NCBI GenBank assembly: GCA_013141385.1
Contig: JABFRB010000044.1
Coordinates: 1 to 46,041, forward strand
DNA length: 46,041 bases
Direction: 5' to 3'
Source: Bacteroidales bacterium
GTDB taxonomy: Bacteria > Bacteroidota > Bacteroidia > Bacteroidales > Tenuifilaceae
Both the position numbers and the translations under genes were made by a program. Under the pieces are notes generated by a model. It was not told the origin of the DNA, searched no databases, and was given only the letters and a program-made list of their open reading frames with translations. Below, piece after piece: positions 3,637 through 43,993 of this stretch. Within the stretch, counting starts at the first letter, position 1. Every line of letters begins with the position of its first letter.

Positions 3637-4695
3637 TTAGCTCCACAATTTGTCAAATAGTTTGTCATAACCACGCTGATTATAAAACTTTGTAAACTCT
3701 AAATTGTCAGATGCTGGAAATTCAATTTTGATTTCTTCTGAAAGGTTTTTCAAAACTTTGTCGCCAACTGATTTTGAAAACTTTCCTCTCAATGCTTTCT
3801 CATACCAAGTATGCAAATCACTTTCTGTTACGATGCTTTGTATTTTAGATTTCCAACCGATTTGATTTAGCAACGAAACAATAAGTTTCTGTTCGCTGTC
3901 TTTGCAAACAATTACAATTCTATCTGCCGAAACTGAAGTAACAATATTTTCTGCAAGTTCTTCAGTCAGGGATAAATGTTTAATTTGAATTACAAGTCCG
4001 AAGTTAGCCCACATATCAAGTCCTCTGTCTGCTGCATTTGTAACGCCAACACGATTTATTCTTGCTGGCACTTTCATTTTATTTTGTTTAGGAGTAAGAC
4101 GAATAACTTTTTGCGCAAAGTCCTCAAACTCTTTGAAAATGTCTTCCTTTGCAGGGTTCATACTTACTTCAACTGAAACTTCCAACGCTTCAACAAGTGC
4201 AGAGAAAAGAGAAAACACAATTATCTCATAAATTTTATCAATGCTTCTTCTTAACCCTGGCTCATTCCAAAACAGTGCAAGAAACTCATCAAGTTTGAAA
4301 TTGTTTTTATCGTGTGAATTGCAATAGTCATTTCCTGTTGACATTTGAGAAAACCTTTCTGAAAATCTGCGGTAGATATACGCCTCTACAATTCCTTTTT
4401 TATTACGATTTTCTTTCCCAAGCACAACTAATGTTGAGGGTGGAATAGCATTTTCATTAAAAATATCGTCTTGGTATCGTGCTGAAGAAGTGCTTGTTCT
4501 GCCCAAAAATTTGTTGCAAATAACATCTCTCCACCGCTTTGAAACATTGCGATAGGTTTGTAAATCAGAAAGAGTAATATCTTTTTCCGTTCTATCTCTG
4601 TGTAGAATTTCTGCAATTTGAATTGGCTTGTAAAGATGAACTCTTGCTTTAGAGATTACTTTATCAATGGACTGCTTGGCTTCTTTTATATTCAT
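3637..4695 (-). CDS. HaeII-type type II restriction endonuclease
   Basis: 352 aa, the length I recall for the HaeII endonuclease family, and I recognise its N-terminal pattern (KARVHLYKPIQIAEILHRDR, YRNVSKRWRD, STSSARYQDD). By family knowledge it should cleave double-stranded DNA at the degenerate RGCGCY site; the actual specificity is inferred. A plausible PD-(D/E)xK-like core is Asp227 (GLDMW) with IQIKH (residues 236-240). The start overlaps the 3' end of the methyltransferase gene by 32 bp, so the endonuclease is translated after, and probably coupled to, its protective methylase. No controller (C) protein is adjacent. Confidence 0.85.
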   Translation of the reverse strand: MNIKEAKQSIDKVISKARVHLYKPIQIAEILHRDRTEKDITLSDLQTYRNVSKRWRDVICNKFLGRTSTSSARYQDDIFNENAIPPSTLVVLGKENRNKKGIVEAYIYRRFSERFSQMSTGNDYCNSHDKNNFKLDEFLALFWNEPGLRRSIDKIYEIIVFSLFSALVEALEVSVEVSMNPAKEDIFKEFEDFAQKVIRLTPKQNKMKVPARINRVGVTNAADRGLDMWANFGLVIQIKHLSLTEELAENIVTSVSADRIVIVCKDSEQKLIVSLLNQIGWKSKIQSIVTESDLHTWYEKALRGKFSKSVGDKVLKNLSEEIKIEFPASDNLEFTKFYNQRGYDKLFDKLWS

Positions 4696-5659
4696 TTTGC
4701 GGTACTAATAATTTTAGTTGAACTGCTTCTTTTCTTGCTGTTTCTTGGTTTTTCAAAGCACTTATAATTTCGCCTGCAATGGCTTTAATAACTGGAACAG
4801 AAACCGAATTTCCTGCAACTTTTCTTGCTTGTGAATATGGAATATTTATTTTAAATGTGTCTGGAAAACCTTGTAAACGCAACATTTCTCTGTCTGTTAG
4901 TCGCCTTACGCCATTTACAACAAGGTAATTATAACTTCCTCCTGCTCTTAATGCACACGAATAAGGTAATGCAGAAATATTACCACCAATGTTTTCGTGC
5001 CAAACAGACGGATAGGGAGGAATGCCCTTAACCGCATTTAATCTTTTTTCTTTCAGTTGGTCTGATAGAAAATAACTTTTAGGAATGTCTTCGTCCTTTT
5101 GTAAAATAGTTGTCAATGGTTGATAATAACCAAGTGGTTTAGGAAACTTAAAATGAATAGGGTTGCGAAAACCTACTATGTAAATGCGTTCCCTTTTTTG
5201 TGGCACACCGAAGTCAAGTGAATTAAAAACTTTATGATAAACAGTATAACCAAGTCCTTTTAGTTTTTCTAAAATAGTAGCAAAAGTTAGTCCTTTGTCA
5301 TGTGTTGTCAAACGCTTTACATTTTCTAATAAAAACGCTTGCGGTTTTTTAGCTTCTAAAATTGCTTCAATGTTGAAGAATAAAGTTCCTCTTGTGTCTG
5401 CAAATCCAAGTCCTTTTCCAGCAATACTAAATGGTTGACAAGGAAAACCTGCCAATAAAATGTCATGGTCTGGAATGTCTTGTGGTGCAATTTCATTGAT
5501 GTCGCCAAAAGGCTTTTCGCCAAAATTTGCTTCATACATTGTCTGCGCTGACTTGTCCCATTCTGATGTAAAAACATTTTCACAACCGTATGCCTCAAAG
5601 CCAAGTCGTATGCCACCAATACCTGCAAAAAGGTCAATTGTTTTATATTTTTTTATCAT
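4664..5659 (-). CDS. DNA (cytosine-5) methyltransferase of the HaeII-type R-M system
   Basis: 331-aa C5-cytosine methylase that protects host sites from the partner nuclease. The ordered motifs are all visible: I DLFAGIGGIRLGF (9-21), IV GFPCQPFS with catalytic Cys74, VI ENV (112-114), VIII QKRERIYIVG (154-163), then a target-recognition region, IX RRLTDREMLRLQGFP and X GNSVSVPVI. It is the first gene of a two-gene operon and overlaps the endonuclease start by 32 bp. It is intact, so the system is probably active. The site (RGCGCY) is inferred from the partner. Confidence 0.92.
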   Translation of the reverse strand: MIKKYKTIDLFAGIGGIRLGFEAYGCENVFTSEWDKSAQTMYEANFGEKPFGDINEIAPQDIPDHDILLAGFPCQPFSIAGKGLGFADTRGTLFFNIEAILEAKKPQAFLLENVKRLTTHDKGLTFATILEKLKGLGYTVYHKVFNSLDFGVPQKRERIYIVGFRNPIHFKFPKPLGYYQPLTTILQKDEDIPKSYFLSDQLKEKRLNAVKGIPPYPSVWHENIGGNISALPYSCALRAGGSYNYLVVNGVRRLTDREMLRLQGFPDTFKINIPYSQARKVAGNSVSVPVIKAIAGEIISALKNQETARKEAVQLKLLVPQNEYKRSQAVH

Positions 5660-7402: not shown

Positions 7403-7426
7403 ACGTTTATATGTCTGTTTTTTTTC

Positions 7427-7529
7427 AAACCTCTACACCCATTTATATCTATAGGTCTGTTTTTTAATATCCTTTTACAAATTTAGTCTTTCCCACCAAT
7501 CGTCAAACATAACTTCTGTTTTTTATAAC
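7427..7529 (-). repeat. Imperfect ~104-bp direct repeat, copy B, with mini reading frame
   Basis: Partner of 2044-2147. On the minus strand it reads KTEVMFDDWWERLNL and a stop, matching copy A in the D-D-W-W core. The AT-rich sequence after the stop also aligns. The two copies bracket the DUF6261, R-M and IS110 genes. Confidence 0.55.
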
Positions 7530-7633: not shown

Positions 7634-7666
7634 AACCCCGTCAGGGTTTCGAACCCTGACGGGGTT
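7634..7666. repeat. Perfect 15-bp palindromic hairpin (REP-like)
   Basis: AACCCCGTCAGGGTT and its exact complement flank a 3-nt loop (TCG). It is GC-rich in AT-rich surroundings, about 60 bp past the stop of the S41 protease gene. It looks like a dispersed palindromic repeat; a terminator role is possible but there is no T run. Confidence 0.7.
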
Positions 7667-7724: not shown

Positions 7725-9218
7725 CTAAAAAGGTTTATCCAATTTGATATAGTTTATCAGCTTATCGTTGGAGTTTAGATATTCCGCTGAGCATGGGTTA
7801 CCGTACAATGCTCGTTCAAGGTAATTGTTAATACCCTCGTTAAATTGTATTTTACTATTTCCGGCTGGGTTGCTATTACCATTCTCAATATTCGATAAAT
7901 CAATTGTGAATGGCATCCTGAAAACAATACCCGAATTCTTCAACTTGAATATTAGGGGTGTTAGCCCTCTCCCTGCTATCCTGCTGGGAGGGTTTCCTAT
8001 CAGCTCCATCGATTTACTATTCGGGGTAAGTGATGTTAAACTGCTGGCAGCCGAGTATGTATCTTCGTCCTGAATTACGTATATCTTCCTAAATATTTTG
8101 GAATTATTCTGCAATGGCTTTATGGTATCGGTTGAAGCAGAAATCTCAATAAATTTATAGGATCCTATAGATACATTGGCTTCGGCGCTGTCTTTTATAT
8201 TATATAAATTCAAAACCCTCTTGGTTGGACTGTTATTTAAAGCACCTATACTGCTCCTCACAACAACAGGTTCGGCTAAAACGCTCTCCAGTATCTTTTG
8301 CCAAACAACATCCTGCCCTCCCCTATTGCTCCTAACATCTAGCACAACTTTCGTTATGCTATCGTTGAGCTTATCGTGAATTAATTTAAAGTAATACTCT
8401 TCGTTAAACATAAAGGGAATCCTAAGATATAGAATATCTTTACCAATAACCTCGGCAAAAGGTTTACTGCACATACTTTCGTGCTCCTTCAAAAGGATTT
8501 CGAGCGGCTGGGCAAGGTTAATTGTTACAGTGTTTTCGCCAATTGTTAGGGTGAATTTACGGATTCCCAATTCGGGCATCGCCAAAAAAAACATCTCCGA
8601 GTACCATTTCCTATGGCTCTCGTCCCACCTTAAATCGTAAAAATGATACTTATACTTTGAAACAAAAGAGTCGATGCTAATATCATTAATAGCCCTAACC
8701 TCAAGCCCCTCCTTAATCTTTGCTCCATTGTAATTGAAAGGACGGACATTGTAGTACTTTCCATCAATATATTTCACCCTTAAACCACACTTTATTTGTG
8801 AGTAGATGCTGTCGTAAACGAGTTTAAAGTATCTGTCGGCGTTGAGCGTATCGGCTAGGGATACATTGCCAAAACTGGCTAGGTTGCCAAAGCGTTTGGT
8901 GTATAGGATGATGGTTGATTTGTCGGCAAAAATCAGGTGACCATCGTTGAGCACGGCAAATGCCTGTTTCATTATAAACGCAAAGTCTTTGGCTGTTTTG
9001 GCGTTTGAAATTCCTTTCCCAATGCTGTTTAGCTCTTTGTTAGCTTCAATACCAGTTTTCTGCTCCAGCTGCGGGCGCAATGCGTAGTAATTGTTTACGA
9101 TGGTGGTGAACTGGTTGTAATCCTCCATCATCGCATTCTGCGATAATACTTGTGCTGTTGTTGCAAGTGGGTAAAGAAGGCTTAAGCCTATAAATAAAGA
9201 TTTAAGGATTCTGGACAT
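7725..9218 (-). CDS. Secreted S41 family peptidase of the RiPP locus
   Basis: 497 aa with a signal peptide (about 1-22, ending ATTAQ), so periplasmic or exported. S41 (C-terminal-processing/tricorn-like) features: LNDGHLIF (about 90-97; the DGH motif of S41B proteins, His94 a candidate catalytic residue), VVLDVRSNRGGQ (291-302) and the nucleophile region DTYSAASSL with Ser389. No lysine at the CtpA position was apparent, so a Ser-His type site is more likely. Its start overlaps the end of the radical SAM gene by 17 bp, implying translational coupling. It may trim or release the modified peptides after export; the substrate is inferred only from context. Confidence 0.85.
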   Translation of the reverse strand: MSRILKSLFIGLSLLYPLATTAQVLSQNAMMEDYNQFTTIVNNYYALRPQLEQKTGIEANKELNSIGKGISNAKTAKDFAFIMKQAFAVLNDGHLIFADKSTIILYTKRFGNLASFGNVSLADTLNADRYFKLVYDSIYSQIKCGLRVKYIDGKYYNVRPFNYNGAKIKEGLEVRAINDISIDSFVSKYKYHFYDLRWDESHRKWYSEMFFLAMPELGIRKFTLTIGENTVTINLAQPLEILLKEHESMCSKPFAEVIGKDILYLRIPFMFNEEYYFKLIHDKLNDSITKVVLDVRSNRGGQDVVWQKILESVLAEPVVVRSSIGALNNSPTKRVLNLYNIKDSAEANVSIGSYKFIEISASTDTIKPLQNNSKIFRKIYVIQDEDTYSAASSLTSLTPNSKSMELIGNPPSRIAGRGLTPLIFKLKNSGIVFRMPFTIDLSNIENGNSNPAGNSKIQFNEGINNYLERALYGNPCSAEYLNSNDKLINYIKLDKPF

Positions 9219-10494
9219 TATTCTTAATTCTATAGTGGTTGAAGAGGAAAGTATTAAGGTTGTTCTTTATATCTGCACACGTATTGGCCTGCTCGTTTCT
9301 ATGTACGCTTTCAATCCTAGCGTATGGGCATCCGCCATCGCAAATTGGGAAGTAGAAACATTCTTTGCACTCTTGGAGCGATAAGGGATCGGCCTCAACT
9401 AGGTATTCGATGTATAGATCCGATGCTTTTAGATTGAAGATATCGCCAATGGTTTTGTCCTCAACCCCAATATCGTTCCAGCATTTGTAGAGTTCACCTT
9501 TAGGGCCAACAACAAAGCTGTTGATATGACGGGCAGTACATTCGCCAAATCCCGATTTTGGGTAGAATGCCAACGGTATTTTATATTTATCGTACTGCTG
9601 CGCCATAAACTCCAGCTTGTCCTCCTTTTGGAAAAGGCACGATGAGTTACACTTGGTTGAGTAAATATCGGTAACATACCCAGGATGTACGGATAGATTA
9701 TTTGTGGGGATTATTTCTTTTAGGTGATAGTAGAGCTGGTGATATTCGTCCTGATTATTCTTGTCGACATTAACCCTAAGGGCTACCTTCATCTCGGGGA
9801 TAATTTCAAAAAGGGTGGTTAAGTTCTTTATAATGGTTTGGAAGCTGTTCTTGTGCTGCTTGTGGGGTCGCCGTATATTGTGGGTTTGTTCAAGCCCATC
9901 TAATGTAATCTGTAGCTGTGTTATCTGGAGAGATTTAAGATTAGATATTACATTTTTATCTAATAGATACCCGTTAGTAATCATTGCTGCTTGATAGTTG
10001 ATACCCAATTTTAGAATCTCTTCGGTAATTTTCTGTACCTTTTTATACGCGATCAATGGCTCACCGCCGTACCACGTTACACGCAAAAACTCAATGTTTT
10101 TATGGTTTTTAATGAAATTAATAATTCCATCAATAACCTCCTCGGACATTTGATGCTCCGATGTTAAGTGATCCTTTTCGTAGCAATACTCACATGCAAA
10201 ATTGCACGACATGGTGGGCGCAATGGTTAAAGTTAAGTACTTTTTCTCAAACCTTGAGAGTAATCTCTGTAGCTTGATTTTGTTGTATATAGCCGAGTCG
10301 TTCTCAACAAGGATATTTTCTGCCTTTAGCCTCTCAATACTCTCAGGGTCTAAATCCAGTTTGCCAGCAGCGCAATCCTTCATAACCTCGTAATCATCGG
10401 CATTTAGCTTTATAAAATTATTGGTATACGAGTTATACAAAAAATACTCTTTATTATCGGTTTCGAATAGGTAGTTATACTTTGACCATTTCAT
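9202..10494 (-). CDS. Radical SAM/SPASM peptide maturase
   Basis: 430-aa enzyme. An N-terminal region (about 1-75) that may serve peptide recognition is followed by the radical SAM core, with the [4Fe-4S] motif C97-x3-C101-x2-C104 (SCNFACEYCYE) and WYGGEPL. It has a C-terminal SPASM domain with clustered cysteines (GECTARH, LYKCWND, CKECFYFPICDGGCPY, TCADI) for auxiliary clusters. It should install a post-translational crosslink in the adjacent precursors; thioether or carbon-carbon bonds at Cys or aromatic residues are both possible. It lies about 100 bp downstream of precursor 1, across a hairpin likely to reduce its expression relative to the peptides. Confidence 0.9.
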   Translation of the reverse strand: MKWSKYNYLFETDNKEYFLYNSYTNNFIKLNADDYEVMKDCAAGKLDLDPESIERLKAENILVENDSAIYNKIKLQRLLSRFEKKYLTLTIAPTMSCNFACEYCYEKDHLTSEHQMSEEVIDGIINFIKNHKNIEFLRVTWYGGEPLIAYKKVQKITEEILKLGINYQAAMITNGYLLDKNVISNLKSLQITQLQITLDGLEQTHNIRRPHKQHKNSFQTIIKNLTTLFEIIPEMKVALRVNVDKNNQDEYHQLYYHLKEIIPTNNLSVHPGYVTDIYSTKCNSSCLFQKEDKLEFMAQQYDKYKIPLAFYPKSGFGECTARHINSFVVGPKGELYKCWNDIGVEDKTIGDIFNLKASDLYIEYLVEADPLSLQECKECFYFPICDGGCPYARIESVHRNEQANTCADIKNNLNTFLFNHYRIKNNVQNP

Positions 10495-10550
10495 ACAATT
10501 AAATTAAGCTTGATTAGAAAAGTAAACTTTAATAATAGTGCAAAACGTAA

Positions 10551-10586
10551 GGGCTGCCCTTAACAGCATTTGTGCAGCGACAGCCC
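10551..10586 (-). terminator. Attenuating hairpin between precursor 1 and the maturase
   Basis: GGGCTG (10551-10556) pairs with CAGCCC (10581-10586). It belongs to the same hairpin family found after precursors 2 and 3. Partial readthrough would give high precursor and lower maturase expression. Confidence 0.5.
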
Positions 10587-10594
10587 GAATAGGT

Positions 10595-10792
10595 TTAGCA
10601 TAAACTGCTTTTGCAGATACAATCTGGAGCACAATTCCAAGCATCACAACCCCACCATGGATCGCATTGGGTATCTACCTCAGCAAACATACCCCCTTTT
10701 AATTCGGACATTGCTAAATTCGACAATCGAGCATCAATCTCTTTTTGAGAATCTTTCTTTTCAACAAAGTTGAATTCCTTTAATGTTTTCAT
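10595..10792 (-). CDS. RiPP precursor peptide 1 (GG-leader, Cys/Trp-rich core)
   Basis: 65 aa. The leader is residues 1-34 (MKTLKEFNFVEK... NLAMSELKGG), ending in a double glycine. The core of 31 residues contains CDPWWGCDAWNCAPDC, then ICKSSLC: six Cys and three Trp. It resembles the GG-Bacteroidales family of radical-SAM-modified precursors. The ATG at 10792 is chosen because the same MKTLKEF start is conserved in all three paralogs; a TTG nine bases earlier is in frame but not needed. It is the precursor closest to the maturase gene. Confidence 0.88.
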   Translation of the reverse strand: MKTLKEFNFVEKKDSQKEIDARLSNLAMSELKGGMFAEVDTQCDPWWGCDAWNCAPDCICKSSLC

Positions 10793-10816
10793 AATAAACA
10801 ATATTTTGGTTTGTTG

Positions 10817-10844
10817 TGTAATAATAAAAATATATATCCAATAT
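10817..10844 (-). promoter_or_regulatory. Conserved promoter block of precursor 1
   Basis: 28 bp identical to 11183-11210 upstream of precursor 2, about 25 bp from the start codon, with TATATATTTTT in the place of a -7 element. Conservation of this block between paralogs suggests co-regulation. Confidence 0.5.
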
Positions 10845-10909
10845 TCTATATTTTAATACAATTTATTTGCGTATTTCAAAGGCAATAAACTAAGAAAACT
10901 GCAAAAAAG

Positions 10910-10949
10910 AAGGGCTGCCTTTAACAGCATTCGTTTTCGGGCAGCCCTT
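10910..10949 (-). terminator. Terminator of precursor 2
   Basis: AAGGGCTGCC (10910-10919) pairs with GGCAGCCCTT (10940-10949). On the minus strand it is followed by a TTCTTTTTTG tract, just after the stop of precursor 2. Confidence 0.75.
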
Positions 10950-10957
10950 GAATAGGT

Positions 10958-11158
10958 TTAGCACAAACTGCTCTTGCAAACACAGTCTGGAGCGCAATTC
11001 CAAGCATCGCAGCTTCTCCATGGATCGCATGGAAGAGCAACTTGCTCTGCCAATACACCTCCTTTTAACTCAGACATCGCTAAATTCGACAACCGAGCAT
11101 CAATCTCTTTTTGCGAATCTCTTTTTTCAACAAAGTTGAATTCCTTTAATGTTTTCAT
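10958..11158 (-). CDS. RiPP precursor peptide 2
   Basis: 66 aa. The leader is almost identical to that of precursor 1 and ends in MSELKGG. The 32-residue core contains CDPWRSCDAWNCAPDC and ends VCKSSLC. Differences from precursor 1 are concentrated right after the GG (VLAEQVALP) and at the variable pair after the first Trp (RS versus WG). Its own upstream block and downstream terminator make it a separate transcription unit or a strongly expressed part of the operon. It clearly arose by tandem duplication. Confidence 0.88.
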   Translation of the reverse strand: MKTLKEFNFVEKRDSQKEIDARLSNLAMSELKGGVLAEQVALPCDPWRSCDAWNCAPDCVCKSSLC

Positions 11159-11182
11159 AATAAACAATTATTTGGTTTGTCC

Positions 11183-11221
11183 TGTAATAATAAAAATATA
11201 TATCCAATATCCGATAATTTA
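11183..11221 (-). promoter_or_regulatory. Conserved promoter block of precursor 2
   Basis: Shares 28 bp exactly with the precursor 1 block. It also shares the adjoining CGATAATTTA with the precursor 3 block, so it links the three upstream regions. Confidence 0.5.
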
Positions 11222-11332
11222 ATTCACTTTATTGTGCAGGTTTCATAGGTTATAAACTTTAAAGCAAGCAATAAAAAAGTAAAAGGATATATTTTAGACA
11301 TTGTATTAGATTAGGCTGCTTTGAGTTTGATA

Positions 11333-11366
11333 AGAGTCCCGAACTTTTTAAAAAGTTCGGAACTCT
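11333..11366. repeat. Long inverted repeat in the precursor 2-3 gap
   Basis: AGAGT-C-CCGAACTTTTT meets AAAAAGTTCGG-A-ACTCT: 17-nt arms with one mismatch and almost no loop. It could form a cruciform or hairpin. The rest of the 11222-11525 gap shows nothing else. Confidence 0.6.
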
Positions 11367-11525
11367 AGGGTTTAACTTCTTTTCGAGGATTAAATTTTCT
11401 GAGTAAACTTTAGGTATAACAGTTGTTGCTTAATCTGTATAAAGTCTTTTGAATGACTCAACTAGAAATATTTCGCCAATTAATCGTGCTGTCATTGCAT
11501 ATAAACTTAAGAAAGGGGCAAAACA

Positions 11526-11561
11526 AAGGGCTGCCTTCAATATATATTTAAAGCAGCCCTT
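11526..11561 (-). terminator. Terminator of precursor 3
   Basis: AAGGGCTGC (11526-11534) pairs with GCAGCCCTT (11553-11561), about 25 bp past the stop of precursor 3. It has the same stem sequence as the hairpins after precursors 1 and 2. Confidence 0.7.
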
Positions 11562-11586
11562 AAAAGTTTACAATGAATCGATTTTA

Positions 11587-11838
11587 CTAATAAGGTTTTA
11601 AATCAATAGGTTGTGGAACAAAAGGCTGTGGATCGAAAGGTTTTGGATCAGCAATTGCTAGGTTACTCTTGCAAACACAGTCTGGATTGCAATTCCAAGC
11701 ATCGCAACTGCTCCATGGATCACATGTTCCTAATGCACCTCCTTTTAATTCTGACATTCCTAAATTCGACAATCGAGCATCAATCTCTTTTTGTGAATCT
11801 CTTTTCTCTACAAAATTGAATTCTTTTAATGTTTTCAT
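11587..11838 (-). CDS. RiPP precursor peptide 3 with proline-rich tail
   Basis: 83 aa. It has the same leader (MKTLKEFNFVEKRDSQKEID... MSELKGG, one A-to-G change). The core has CDPWSSCDAWNCNPDC followed by VCKSNL. Instead of ending there it continues with a tail of four related five-residue units (DPKPF, DPQPF, VPQPI, DLKPY). The last Cys of the other two peptides is missing, leaving five. The start at 11838 is set by leader homology; the open frame extends further upstream but that part is outside the homology. It is the first gene of the locus. Confidence 0.85.
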   Translation of the reverse strand: MKTLKEFNFVEKRDSQKEIDARLSNLGMSELKGGALGTCDPWSSCDAWNCNPDCVCKSNLAIADPKPFDPQPFVPQPIDLKPY

Positions 11839-11862
11839 AGTATATAATTTTTTAGATTGTAA

Positions 11863-11901
11863 TGTAATATTAAAAAATATATACTTAATATTCGATAATT
11901 T
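11863..11901 (-). promoter_or_regulatory. Conserved promoter block of precursor 3
   Basis: Diverged copy of the block upstream of precursors 1 and 2 (TGTAATATTAAAAAATATAT core, then CGATAATTTA), at the same distance from the start codon. Confidence 0.45.
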
Positions 11902-39592: not shown

Positions 39593-42500
39593 TTATTTAT
39601 TTTTACCTACTAAAAATTCAATAGCAATTACCGATTGATTATATAAATTGAGCGTTTCAAGATAGTTGTTCTTGATCAGCAAAGCCTGCGAAAGGCTCTG
39701 GATATATGCAAGATAATCCATTGCTCCAGCACGATAACTCTTAGTCGATTGATTGATAATCATATCCGCTTGAGGTAATGCTAATTTCTCGTAGTAATCA
39801 ATATTATTCTTGTACTTGCTGTATTCCTGCAATAGCGACTCAAATTCACCAGAGAGAGCAGTTTTAGAATATTCAGCGTTAGCCTTGGCAATGCTATGAT
39901 TAATCTTTGCCGCTTTAATTTTTGCTGCTTGTGGGTAGAACCAAAGAGGTATAGAAATACCTGCCTGAATACCAGTGAACCTATCAGATGATGTATAGTT
40001 ATGGGTTACCCCATTTATCTCCTGAGCACCAATAATTGACTGGCTAAAGTAGCCAATCTTAAAATCGGGAAGTATTTTAGATTTCTCAACCTTTGATTCG
40101 AGTCGAGCCACTTCTACCTTTTGCTCATAGCTGGCTAATGCAGGATTTGATACAAAAGAAATGCTATCCGCATTTATATTAATACTAAGCTTTGTCAAAA
40201 CTGTATCGATTATTGATATAGTTTGCCTAGTGTTTAGGAGTGTTTGAAGTCGTTTTTTATAAATCTCAACATCAGCCTTTGTTTGCATTAAAAGGTTGCG
40301 AACTTCAAGGCTTTGAGATTCAGCACTAATCTTCTCAAGCATGTTGGTTTCGCCTGTTTGTGCCCTTCTATTTGCAGCGTTGGTAAACCCAGTGTAAAGA
40401 CTATCCTGATACCTCAACAATCTTAGCTTAGAGTAGTAGTAGGTCAACTTCCACCAAGTTGTTTTCACGCCATTTACAATCTCGTTTTTAGTGATCGAAA
40501 ATTCTATTTCACTACTTTTAATATTTGCTTTTGCCAACTTATACTGTCCTGTATAAACAGTGGGAAAAGCAAATGATTGTGAGATAGTTATCCCGTTATC
40601 CTTATTTGTAGAATTAAACTGACCGTATTCAATATCAATATCGGTTTTGCCAATATCCCACGACGTACCTTTAAGTGCACGCTGCAATTCAACCTGATAG
40701 CCCGCTGACCGAATGTTCAGGTTACTATCAACAGCGATTGAAATAGCCTTCTCCAGAGTCAATATCTTTGGAGACATTTGCTGAGCATTTGCATTCTGAG
40801 TGAATAAAAGGTTAATTGATATGACCCCTAAAATCAGCATAATTGGATTTGCCATGTTAATTTTTCTTCGACTCTTCCTTTGCGAAAAAATTATATATAG
40901 AACTGGCAAAACGATTAACGTTAGAAGTGTTGCTGATATTAATCCGCCAATTACCACTGTTGCCAAAGGTTTTTGCACCTCTGCTCCTGCTGAAGTAGAT
41001 AATGCCATAGGCAAAAATCCGATTGATGCAACCGCAGCAGTCATTACAACAGGGCGAAGTCTGGTTTTCAAACCTTTAAGTACCCTTTCGTAGATATCAA
41101 TAATTCCTTCATCCTTCTCAAGTCGATTAAACTCGGCTATCAGCACAATGCCATTCAATACCGAGACACCGAATAGCGCAATAAAACCAACTCCTGCGGA
41201 GATGCTAAAATTCATATCCCTTAACCATAGTGCTAACACACCACCTATTGCAGATAGTGGGACTGCTGAATAAATGAGCAGCGTTTGCTTAAATGAATGG
41301 AAGGTGAAGAAAAGCAATACGAATATCAGCAACAAAGCAACTGGAACAGCCACGGCTAAACGATTCTTCGCAGCTACAAGATTTTCGAACTGGCCACCAT
41401 ACGTTACAAAGTATCCCGGAGGTAGTTTGATACTCTTCTCGATTTTTGTACGAACCTCTTTGATAATACTCTCAACATCACGACCCCGAACATTAAAACC
41501 TATGGTAATTCTACGTTTAGTATTCTCACGTGATATTTGTGCTGGACCAGCTTTTATCTGAACATCGGCAAGTTGATCGAGGTTGATTTGACCTCCTGAA
41601 GGCAAAGAGACGTAAAGGTTTTTGACATTTTCTAAATCCTGCCTAAACTCCTTTTCAAAACGAACAACCAAATCGAATCGTTTCTCCTCCTCAAATATTA
41701 CACCTGCAGAGCTACCTGCAAATGCAGTCCTAACAAGTTGATTTATATCAGAAATATTAAGTCCGTATTGTGCTATTTTATCACGATTATATTCAATCTG
41801 AATTTGTGGTAGACCTGTAACCTTTTCAACATTAATATCTTGTACACCTTGTATTGGTTGAATCAAACGCTCAACCTTTGATGCGTTTAGAGCAAGGGTT
41901 TCGAGATTATCACCAAATATTTTTATGGCAACATCTTGTCTAGAGCCAGTCATCAACTCATTAAAACGCATTTGAATGGGTTGTTGGAACTCGAACTTAA
42001 CACCGGGAAGAATAGATAAGGCTTTCTCCATCTTCTCAATTAATTCCTCACGTGTTTCGGCAGATGTCCATTCTTTTTCATCTTTTAGAGTAATAATATA
42101 ATCCCCAGTTTCCATAGGTGTTGGATCTGTTGGAATCTCGGCTGAACCAATTTTACAAACGGCTTGTTTAACCTCTGGAAAATTGGAAAGTAGAATCTTA
42201 TTAGCCTTTTCAACCGTTTCTACTGTATTTGTAAGCGAACTACCCTGAAGAGTCATAATCCCAGCGGCAAGGTCACCCTCGTTGAGTTGCGGAAGAAACT
42301 CTCCTCCCAATCGGTTAAAAAGCCACATACTACCGATAAACATTATTATTGAGATGATCACTACCCACTTTTTGCTTCTGAGCGCAATATTTATTATTGG
42401 AGTAAAACCTCGATGGATATAATCCATGATTTTATCAGAAATATTGGGTTTATGCACAGGATTTTTGCTTAGAAACATTGCAGATGCGACGGGTACATAA

Positions 42501-43993
42501 GTTAACGATAGGATTAATGCACCAAATATGGCAAAGCTAACTACCTCAGCCATTGGCCTAAACATTTTGCCCTCAATACCAACCAATGCAAGTATAGGTA
42601 GATATACAATTAGTATGATAATTTGACCAAAGGTTGCAGAGCTCATCATACGTTTAGATGATGATAATACTTCATCATCGATTTGCTGTTGGGTTAATCG
42701 AATAACGCCTTGATGGTGTGTTTTGCTCATATAAATTCGATGCACAACACTCTCCACAATGATTACGGCTCCATCTACAATCAACCCGAAGTCAATAGCA
42801 CCTAAACTCATGAGGTTGCCCGAAACACCAAAGAGGTTCATTAATGATATTGCGAATAGCATTGAAAGGGGAATTACAGAGGCCACAATTAGCCCTGCCC
42901 TGAGGTTTCCTAAAAGAAGAACTAGGACAAATACTACGATAAGGCCCCCTTCGATGAGGTTTTTTGAAACAGTGCCAATGGAACGACTAACCAAATTAGT
43001 TCTATCCAAGTAGGGTTGGATTGTTACCCCTTCGGGTAAACTCTTTTCAATTATAGTGATGCGATCTTTAACATTTTCAATGACTTGATGTGCATTCGCA
43101 CCTTTCAGCATCATCACAACACCCCCAACGGCTTCGCCAGATGTATCGGCAACAAATGCGCCATAGCGTGGGGCACTACCAAACAGAACAGTTGCCACAT
43201 CGCGAATAAGAACAGGTATTCCATGTTCTTTATTTTTTACAACAATCCGCTGAATATCCTCCAACGAGGTTGCTAAACCAATTCCTCGGATAAAGTAGGC
43301 ATTTGGTTTTTTATCGATATAAGCGCCTCCCGTATTTTCGTTGTTTTTTGATAAAGCATCTAAAATATCAGTTAATGTTAGGTTCATGCTACGAAGTTTC
43401 TCAGGATTGATAGATACCACGTACTGTTTCAGAAATCCGCCATAGCTGTTAACATCAGCTACACCAGGTGTTCCAAGCATCTCACGGCGAACAATCCAAT
43501 CCTGAACAGTTCTTAAATCCATAGCCGAATACTTTTTCTCATAGCCCGGCTGACGATGCAAGATGTACTGGAATATCTCCCCCAAACCCGTAGAAACAGG
43601 AGCCATCTCGGGTTTTGTCATGCCATTGGGGATTTGCTCCTCGGCCTCTTTTAATCGTTCACCTACAAGCATACGAGCTTTATAGATATCAACATGATCC
43701 TCGAAAACAATGGTAACCACAGAGAGACCCAGTCGTGAAATGGAGCGCAATTCCACCACATCGGGAATGTTAGCCATCGAAACCTCAATGGGAGTTGTAA
43801 TAAACCGTTCTACTTCCTGAACGGCTAGGGTTGGAGCAACCGAAATCACCTGAACCTGATTATTGGTGATATCGGGAACGGCATCAATGGGCAAACGAAC
43901 TAGCGAAAAAATTCCCCATGCAATCAGCGCAAGGGTGAATAGTCCAATAATTGCCTTATTCTTAAGAGAAAAATTAATTATTCTTTCAATCAT
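39593..43993 (-). CDS. CzcA/CusA-type RND metal pump fused to TolC-type outer-membrane channel
   Basis: 1466 aa. Residues 1 to about 1040 form a heavy-metal RND pump: PIDAVPDITNNQVQV near the start, GAIDFGLIVDGAVIIVES in TM4 with the proton-relay acidic residues, and a second TM set ending LPVLYIIFSQ. A second hydrophobic stretch, MANPIMLILGVISIN (from Met1047), ends in NANA-QQ like a cleaved signal peptide; residues after 1070 are a TolC-type channel (LTLEKAISIAVDSNLNIRSA, coiled helices). Signal peptidase may cut the fusion, or the channel may start at an internal ATG at 40855. First gene of the operon with the adaptor. Metal specificity is not readable. Confidence 0.93.
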   Translation of the reverse strand: MIERIINFSLKNKAIIGLFTLALIAWGIFSLVRLPIDAVPDITNNQVQVISVAPTLAVQEVERFITTPIEVSMANIPDVVELRSISRLGLSVVTIVFEDHVDIYKARMLVGERLKEAEEQIPNGMTKPEMAPVSTGLGEIFQYILHRQPGYEKKYSAMDLRTVQDWIVRREMLGTPGVADVNSYGGFLKQYVVSINPEKLRSMNLTLTDILDALSKNNENTGGAYIDKKPNAYFIRGIGLATSLEDIQRIVVKNKEHGIPVLIRDVATVLFGSAPRYGAFVADTSGEAVGGVVMMLKGANAHQVIENVKDRITIIEKSLPEGVTIQPYLDRTNLVSRSIGTVSKNLIEGGLIVVFVLVLLLGNLRAGLIVASVIPLSMLFAISLMNLFGVSGNLMSLGAIDFGLIVDGAVIIVESVVHRIYMSKTHHQGVIRLTQQQIDDEVLSSSKRMMSSATFGQIIILIVYLPILALVGIEGKMFRPMAEVVSFAIFGALILSLTYVPVASAMFLSKNPVHKPNISDKIMDYIHRGFTPIINIALRSKKWVVIISIIMFIGSMWLFNRLGGEFLPQLNEGDLAAGIMTLQGSSLTNTVETVEKANKILLSNFPEVKQAVCKIGSAEIPTDPTPMETGDYIITLKDEKEWTSAETREELIEKMEKALSILPGVKFEFQQPIQMRFNELMTGSRQDVAIKIFGDNLETLALNASKVERLIQPIQGVQDINVEKVTGLPQIQIEYNRDKIAQYGLNISDINQLVRTAFAGSSAGVIFEEEKRFDLVVRFEKEFRQDLENVKNLYVSLPSGGQINLDQLADVQIKAGPAQISRENTKRRITIGFNVRGRDVESIIKEVRTKIEKSIKLPPGYFVTYGGQFENLVAAKNRLAVAVPVALLLIFVLLFFTFHSFKQTLLIYSAVPLSAIGGVLALWLRDMNFSISAGVGFIALFGVSVLNGIVLIAEFNRLEKDEGIIDIYERVLKGLKTRLRPVVMTAAVASIGFLPMALSTSAGAEVQKPLATVVIGGLISATLLTLIVLPVLYIIFSQRKSRRKINMANPIMLILGVISINLLFTQNANAQQMSPKILTLEKAISIAVDSNLNIRSAGYQVELQRALKGTSWDIGKTDIDIEYGQFNSTNKDNGITISQSFAFPTVYTGQYKLAKANIKSSEIEFSITKNEIVNGVKTTWWKLTYYYSKLRLLRYQDSLYTGFTNAANRRAQTGETNMLEKISAESQSLEVRNLLMQTKADVEIYKKRLQTLLNTRQTISIIDTVLTKLSININADSISFVSNPALASYEQKVEVARLESKVEKSKILPDFKIGYFSQSIIGAQEINGVTHNYTSSDRFTGIQAGISIPLWFYPQAAKIKAAKINHSIAKANAEYSKTALSGEFESLLQEYSKYKNNIDYYEKLALPQADMIINQSTKSYRAGAMDYLAYIQSLSQALLIKNNYLETLNLYNQSVIAIEFLVGKNK

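Follow-up and report, generated by a model that had tools for sequence, protein, structure and literature searches.

We examined a five-gene cluster in a 46,041-nucleotide contig (JABFRB010000044.1, assembly GCA_013141385.1) from a Bacteroidales bacterium of the Tenuifilaceae; the whole of this stretch is referred to as the window. All five genes lie on the minus strand. In the direction of transcription, three precursor genes, p3 (11587..11838, 83 aa), p2 (10958..11158, 66 aa), and p1 (10595..10792, 65 aa), are followed by the gene for a radical S-adenosylmethionine (SAM)/SPASM peptide maturase (9202..10494, 430 aa) and then by that for an S41 protease (7725..9218, 497 aa), whose start overlaps the end of the maturase gene by 17 bp. 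The GC content of the five genes is 36.5-41.8%, compared with 35.9% for the window. A first-pass annotation had described this as a locus for ribosomally synthesized and post-translationally modified peptides (RiPPs) with three precursors, a maturase, and a protease, and our translations, domain matches, and conservation analyses agreed with that description. The upstream end it gave, 11901, is 63 bases before the first start codon (p3, 11838).

The three precursors and their shared core

As claimed previously, the three precursors have in common a leader that ends in KGG and a core with the scaffold CDPWxxCDAWNCxPDCxCKS. The cores are CDPWSSCDAWNCNPDCVCKSNLA in p3, CDPWRSCDAWNCAPDCVCKSSLC in p2, and CDPWWGCDAWNCAPDCICKSSLC in p1, and the x positions are occupied by WG, RS, or SS, by A or N, and by I or V. 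Also as noted earlier, the Cys and Trp positions are fixed except for the final Cys, which p1 and p2 have (in KSSLC) but p3 lacks, a Pro-rich tail taking the place of that ending; p1 carries an additional Trp at one of the variable positions. The pattern CxxWxxCxxWxC occurred three times in the six frames of the window and never in 200 mononucleotide shuffles, indicating that the Cys/Trp arrangement is not due to chance. The 34-residue leaders differ pairwise by only one or two residues, and their codon differences are mainly synonymous (7:1, 8:2, and 8:1 for the three pairs), the pattern expected of maintained genes.

A search of the genome with p2 returned four matches: the three window precursors and one at an E-value of 0.77. 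No NCBIfam precursor family was matched above its cut-off by p1, p2, or p3; for TIGR04149, with a cut-off of 25, p1 scored 9.7 bits and p2 and p3 gave no match. Among the PHROGs, p1, p3, and the S41 protein had no family and the maturase matched only broad families. When the three cores were aligned with two from the nearest related locus (L005, below), C7, W10, C12, D15, and C16 were invariant. Across 29 leaders picked by eye, the motif [FIVLMN][IVLM]E was found within the first 16 residues in 26, whereas 2000 shuffles gave 6.0 on average and 14 at most. Because the motif was chosen after looking at the leaders, we take this only as a hint of a common recognition site.

The maturase, the S41 protease, and their relatives

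The maturase contains a radical SAM domain (PF04055, 61.6 bits vs a Pfam cut-off of 29.5). Cys97, Cys101, and Cys104 (CX3CX2C), together with Cys319, 338, 376, 379, 385, 389, and 406, are invariant in 26 of 26 aligned maturases, and we take the latter set to fit the seven-Cys SPASM pattern. The enzyme thus belongs, in the broad sense of CX3CX2C plus seven Cys, to the SPASM-domain radical SAM peptide maturases. The first-pass annotation had placed a SPASM maturase and a secreted S41 protease directly downstream of the precursors; Pfam supported the radical SAM and S41 parts of this claim, while the SPASM assignment comes from the Cys pattern and from NCBIfam models below their cut-offs, and "secreted" from an N-terminus that by eye resembles a signal peptide.

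At E ≤ 1, 75 NCBIfam families matched the maturase, and among the best 25 of these 75 it fell below every cut-off. The top model was Clo7bot TIGR04334 (244.7 bits vs 600), with TIGR04463 (238.6 vs 525) and CefB (209.4 vs 600) also prominent; scores for the PapB ranthipeptide model NF047865 (120.8 vs 340) and the SCIFF model TIGR03974 (92.7 vs 425) were lower. The earlier statement that the locus fits no nameable RiPP class therefore holds at the family level, since neither the precursors nor, among these 25 models, the maturase reached a cut-off. All 26 maturases match the Cys-rich-peptide maturase models TIGR04334, TIGR04463, CefB, and PapB, with best E-values (1e-76 to 1e-40) that are near that of the window enzyme and imply sub-cut-off scores.

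An AlphaFold2 model of the maturase built from 26 sequences had a predicted local distance difference test (pLDDT) score of 88.0 and a predicted TM-score (pTM) of 0.86. Its N-terminal unit, with strands at 7-11, 17-21, and 26-30 and helices at 32-42 and 50-58 (block pLDDT of about 90), is winged-helix-like and, judging from the shape of the model, resembles a RiPP recognition element (RRE). By E-value, the best Foldseek matches were CteB structures (5why/5wgg, TM-scores of 0.66-0.69), followed by anaerobic sulfatase maturase, TigE, and SuiB. The best solved chain by sequence was likewise CteB (5wgg/5why, E 3.4e-10).

Scanning genome contigs with the maturase yielded 13 loci, the nearest of which, L005, comes from a Bacteroidales metagenome-assembled genome (MAG) and encodes an enzyme with 50% identity. 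The scaffold recurs in L005, which has one precursor with KGG and CNPWSDCDAWHCGPDCICKSNLA, a second with CKSKCYSWYCVSDC, and an S41 gene directly downstream of the maturase gene. Including the genome of the window itself, the maturase was found in 6 of 60 relatives at 1e-30 and in 18 of 393 genomes of the order at 1e-40; at E ≤ 1e-75, the only match among 395 class-sample genomes was its own. Of four congeners, one of which (G001) is 67% complete, only G002 had matches (41% and 33% identity). The exact scaffold pattern occurred in the window's genome and in none of the 394 others of the phylum sample; a shorter version had no match in viral contigs, and a search of 72,556 plasmid records with the scaffold gave a single match, to an annotated protein that is unrelated (E 0.3). 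Among 25 genomes of the family of L005, only L005's own matched at 1e-60.

In the maturase tree, the window groups with L005 (98/93), and this pair then groups with L006/L007 (93/87, not starred), which come from Aminicenantes/Acidobacteriota MAGs. The L006b and L007b precursors end in CDAVCLPPGYDYVPPCNCKSNLA and CDAVCLPPGYNYVPPCNCKDNLT, respectively. The 23-residue cores of this next clade begin with CD, end with PxCxCKxNL, and lack Trp. The p3 and L006b cores align without gaps over 23 residues and have C1, D2, P14, C16, C18, K19, S20, N21, L22, and A23 in common, while position 10 is Tyr in L006b and Trp in the window. With 2000 shuffles per comparison and four queries, p1 not among them, significant similarity was observed for p2 with L006b and L007b (p 0.001 for both), for p3 (0.002 and 0.0045), and for L005a (0.001 and 0.0055); L005b was not similar to either (p 0.59 and 0.89). 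A core frame of 23 residues is thus common to Bacteroidales and Aminicenantes/Acidobacteriota MAGs. Among ten more distant cores, only L032c fell below 0.05 (p3 0.021, L005b 0.034), and these cores belong to different types in which CxC is frequent, for example CTCKKGNLAPCTC and CKCRKAPFHDCVC.

Further maturases were noted in the genomes of the window and of L005. The window's own genome has three more distant relatives, L024, L030, and L031 (contigs C34, C19, and C16; 40, 32, and 31% identity), and the one on C34 is preceded by a KGG precursor with another core. The genome of L005 (G803) holds a second maturase/S41 pair, L066, again with overlapping genes and with a different Cys-rich core, CICRKKHNGCIRIGC.

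The S41 protein has an S41 domain (PF03572, 42.6 bits vs a gathering score of 24) with a candidate catalytic Ser. Ser389 is present in all eight aligned S41 rows, and His94 (D-x-H) in seven, the eighth lacking that end. By eye, the rows do not conserve Lys where we presume the Lys of the Ser-Lys Ctp proteases would lie, which would fit a Ser-His enzyme; this protein is probably such an enzyme, like CPAF, with His94 and Ser389 as the candidate pair. A model from eight sequences (pLDDT 70.5, pTM 0.74) gave 4ghn as the best Foldseek match, followed by CPAF.

We then considered 45 maturase loci, the window and 44 others, which include the near-duplicates L006/L007 and L070/L071 and several ended by contig ends. 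A strong S41 match (E ≤ 1e-60) on the maturase strand was found in six: the window, L005, L014 (two), L066, L076, and L078 (two). Three more, L074, L091, and L094, had weak matches (E 1e-17 to 1e-21). The E-values of the eight strong proteins follow by construction, because the search profile was built from the same eight; independently of that profile, Pfam detected S41 in the seven that lie outside the window. These are seven of the ten neighbours covered by Pfam; of the other three, one is a DUF4932 protein and two are outer-membrane or carboxypeptidase-regulatory-like. The S41 gene overlaps the maturase gene at three loci, namely the window, L005, and L066. The idea that S41 stands in place of a C39 exporter was dropped because L076 and L078 carry both a strong S41 and a C39-like exporter, the latter recognised by motif.

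At 1e-10, the window S41 matched 5 of 393 genomes of the order: its own, L101 (36%), and three at 26-28%. As a separate observation, the flank of L101 (L105:8810-13405) contains this 36% relative, followed about 2 kb on by a different GG precursor with STIKGGYGEWGN and a 383-aa radical SAM enzyme; nearby proteins share an MKIxQSYWSKPN start, making this another RiPP-like locus near S41.

The proposed pathway and its rivals

On balance, we lean slightly towards reading the five genes as a RiPP biosynthetic operon in which GG-leader precursors are matured by the SPASM enzyme, probably into a thioether peptide, with a linked S41 protease. The N-terminal F-x-F-V-E stretch of the leader would be bound by the RRE-like N-terminal region of the enzyme, and radical hydrogen abstraction would be followed by thioether closure from core Cys, either to a carbon other than the alpha-carbon, as in ranthipeptides, or to the alpha-carbon, as in sactipeptides. 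The 23-residue core, with its fixed frame C-D ... P-x-C-x-C-K-S-N/S-L, would be the ring-bearing region, and by position Asp2, Asp8, Asp15, and Asn/Ser21 are candidate thioether acceptors. Cleavage after Gly-Gly and export could be carried out by a C39 peptidase-ATP-binding cassette transporter encoded elsewhere in the genome, and the S41 protease may trim or finish the exported, possibly bioactive, peptide in the periplasm.

The first-pass annotation had considered ring formation at Cys or at aromatic residues plausible. The Cys part is the one we favour, whereas the aromatic part is weakened: because the cores of the next clade lack Trp, Cys-based thioether rings are preferred to an obligatory Trp chemistry, and some Trp chemistry may still take place, given that Trp10 does not vary within the scaffold group. 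Since the cores of sister clades occur with and without Trp, they can be used to separate the two, and three natural substrate variants beside one enzyme should make the substrate rules easy to test.

Several observations weigh against the proposed pathway. The p3 and L005a cores have five Cys, leaving one unpaired in any Cys-Cys scheme. By query TM-score, TigE (8vpo, 0.68), which is not known to be a thioether synthase, is above CteB (0.66-0.67). The operon has no transporter gene, and the exporter would be one encoded elsewhere; on the side of the proposal, a search for C39 in the genome gave six matches, three of them on frames of 718-733 residues, which are candidate exporters. Using the L007 enzyme at 1e-80, we found only L007 and a 95% copy among the 34 genomes of its order; this copy matches L006, with the same two precursors, so that L006 adds no second lineage and the two are in effect one. 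Furthermore, L006a, the sister of L006b, was not significantly similar to any of the four queries (p 0.09-0.74). On the maturase tree, S41 is not significantly clustered (4 changes vs a shuffled mean of 5.5, with 31 of 500 shuffles as low), and in 39 of the 45 maturase loci the stretch examined contains no strong S41 match.

The last of these would also suit an S41 protease with another task, such as immunity by peptide degradation or housekeeping, and no part in maturing the product. The three S41 relatives at 26-28%, out of four matches outside the genome, point the same way, having no maturase in the stretch examined. Nevertheless, the overlap with the maturase gene at three loci, the recurrence in six, and the closest outside match (L101/L105), about 2 kb from a GG precursor and a radical SAM gene, argue for a link, and we consider a separate task a real contender that falls short of probable.

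A second explanation is that the cross-links made by the maturase are aromatic, namely Trp C-C cyclophanes spanning three residues as in triceptides, and that the Cys form disulfides after export. SPASM-type enzymes are described as closing rings from Trp to an Asn, Asp, or Arg that stands two residues later (PMC11002830). All four full-scaffold precursors retain both Trp4 and Trp10, and with L005b included Trp10 is present in 5 of 5, a further point against thioethers; in the ungapped alignment read by eye, position 10 is Tyr in L006b and L007b, followed by Asp or Asn. Against cross-linking, the cores of the nearest outside clade lack Trp, the cyclophane models YhhB and AmcB scored only 71.7 and 56.1 bits vs 244.7 for the top Cys-rich-peptide model, and most of the other relatives have Cys-rich cores in which CxC is common. 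We regard this explanation as unlikely.

Less likely again is a Cys/Asp metal-binding or redox peptide whose Cys stay free and on which the radical SAM enzyme makes some other change, for example epimerisation: CxC recurs among relatives and the core has three sites where Asp is next to Cys, but CteB, a thioether synthase, is the best match by both fold and sequence, and the epimerase EpeE ranks 20 in Foldseek. We give least credence to a scheme in which the twice-repeated C-D-x-W (CDPW, CDAW) is the ring unit, Cys being joined to the Trp three residues on through the indole or beta-carbon, the C-x-C-K tail closed separately, and the peptide released in the periplasm by S41; if true, this would mean that a radical SAM enzyme can form a Cys-Trp (tryptathionine-like) staple.

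Genomic setting and known systems

A hairpin around GGGCTG/CAGCCC follows each precursor copy on the minus strand, and an AT-rich upstream sequence is common to the three copies. After p3, the hairpin AAGGGCTGC..GCAGCCCTT (11526..11561) has a folding z of -2.97; after p2, a hairpin (10910..10949, z -2.54) is followed by CTTTTTT, is terminator- or attenuator-like, and appears in a terminator scan that lists two of the three; after p1 and before the maturase, the hairpin (10551..10586, z -1.59) is weak, with 17 of 200 shuffles as good. Because terminator-like sites in the region do not exceed those in shuffles (2 vs a mean of 3.7), attenuation between precursors and maturase is only a guess. Downstream of S41, also on the minus strand, a perfect 15-bp hairpin (7634..7666, z -5.48) is a possible operon end. 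Another perfect 15-bp hairpin, in the p3-p2 gap (11330-11385, z -5.47), might act as a terminator or belong to a small repeat.

In congeners G003 and G004, a triosephosphate isomerase-like gene, its start recognised by eye, adjoins prmA, and in G002 four open reading frames (ORFs) separate the two. In the window, that side of prmA holds the operon together with an IS110 transposase and a restriction pair of the HaeII type. The prmA-adjacent DNA of G002 recurs at 7405-7528, beyond the operon, and at 2042-2229, and given this second copy it may be a repeat. We read this comparison around prmA as no more than a hint of an accessory locus.

Other genes of the window were noted on the minus strand. 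The restriction-modification pair (3637-5659), near the RiPP locus, looks complete: the gene for a HaeII-type endonuclease (PF09554, 542 bits) overlaps that for a type II DNA methyltransferase. Beyond it and a DUF6261 gene lies a caspase-like protein (1053-1979; Peptidase_C14, 41.5 bits) with a C-terminal segment that is hydrophobic by eye. A single 1466-aa ORF (39593-43993) fuses an AcrB-type resistance-nodulation-division (RND) pump to a C-terminal outer-membrane efflux (OEP) domain.

The first-pass annotation had called the locus a candidate new system. This is too strong because precursors encoded next to SPASM maturases are already well established in Bacteroidetes (TIGR04139, TIGR04149; PMC8939145), and Bacteroidales SPASM clusters have been discussed, one in comparison with CteB (PMC10352776). 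Like the TIGR04149 RiPPs, the window precursors have a double-Gly leader and are encoded next to a SPASM maturase; L032, L008, and L007 have precursors nearer to that family (20.7, 18.9, and 17.1 bits), still under the cut-off of 25. The Clo7bot TIGR04334 and TIGR04463 maturases are the highest-scoring models and match over nearly the full length, yet at under half of their cut-offs; our literature search found no paper on either. In openly licensed papers, the scope of that search, we likewise found no description of S41 together with radical SAM RiPPs, which is weak evidence of absence.

CteB is a ranthipeptide thioether synthase (PMC8326336), and enzymes of the CteB/PapB build make Cys-Thr and Cys-Asp thioethers (PMC8326336, PMC9413430, PMC11002830); transposed D-x-x-x-C substrates were not processed by PapB (PMC9413430). 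The window enzyme shares with CteB (SCIFF) and PapB the radical SAM barrel, a seven-Cys SPASM, and a Cys-rich substrate, and possibly an RRE-like N-terminus, whereas its substrate core has no CX3D array and it scores below the SCIFF and PapB cut-offs. Its S41 partner aligns with its best fold matches, CPAF and the Bacteroides S41 4ghn, at 12-15% identity and, unlike theirs, its gene overlaps that of a peptide maturase. Downstream, where the window has S41, several other loci encode an outer-membrane protein and a C39 exporter. Rather than a new category, the locus seems to be a known kind of RiPP pathway in an unclassified variant with a recurrent S41 partner. The clade that it marks out is small and open to testing, with a maturase subfamily that scores under existing cut-offs, a core frame of 23 residues, and a recurring S41.

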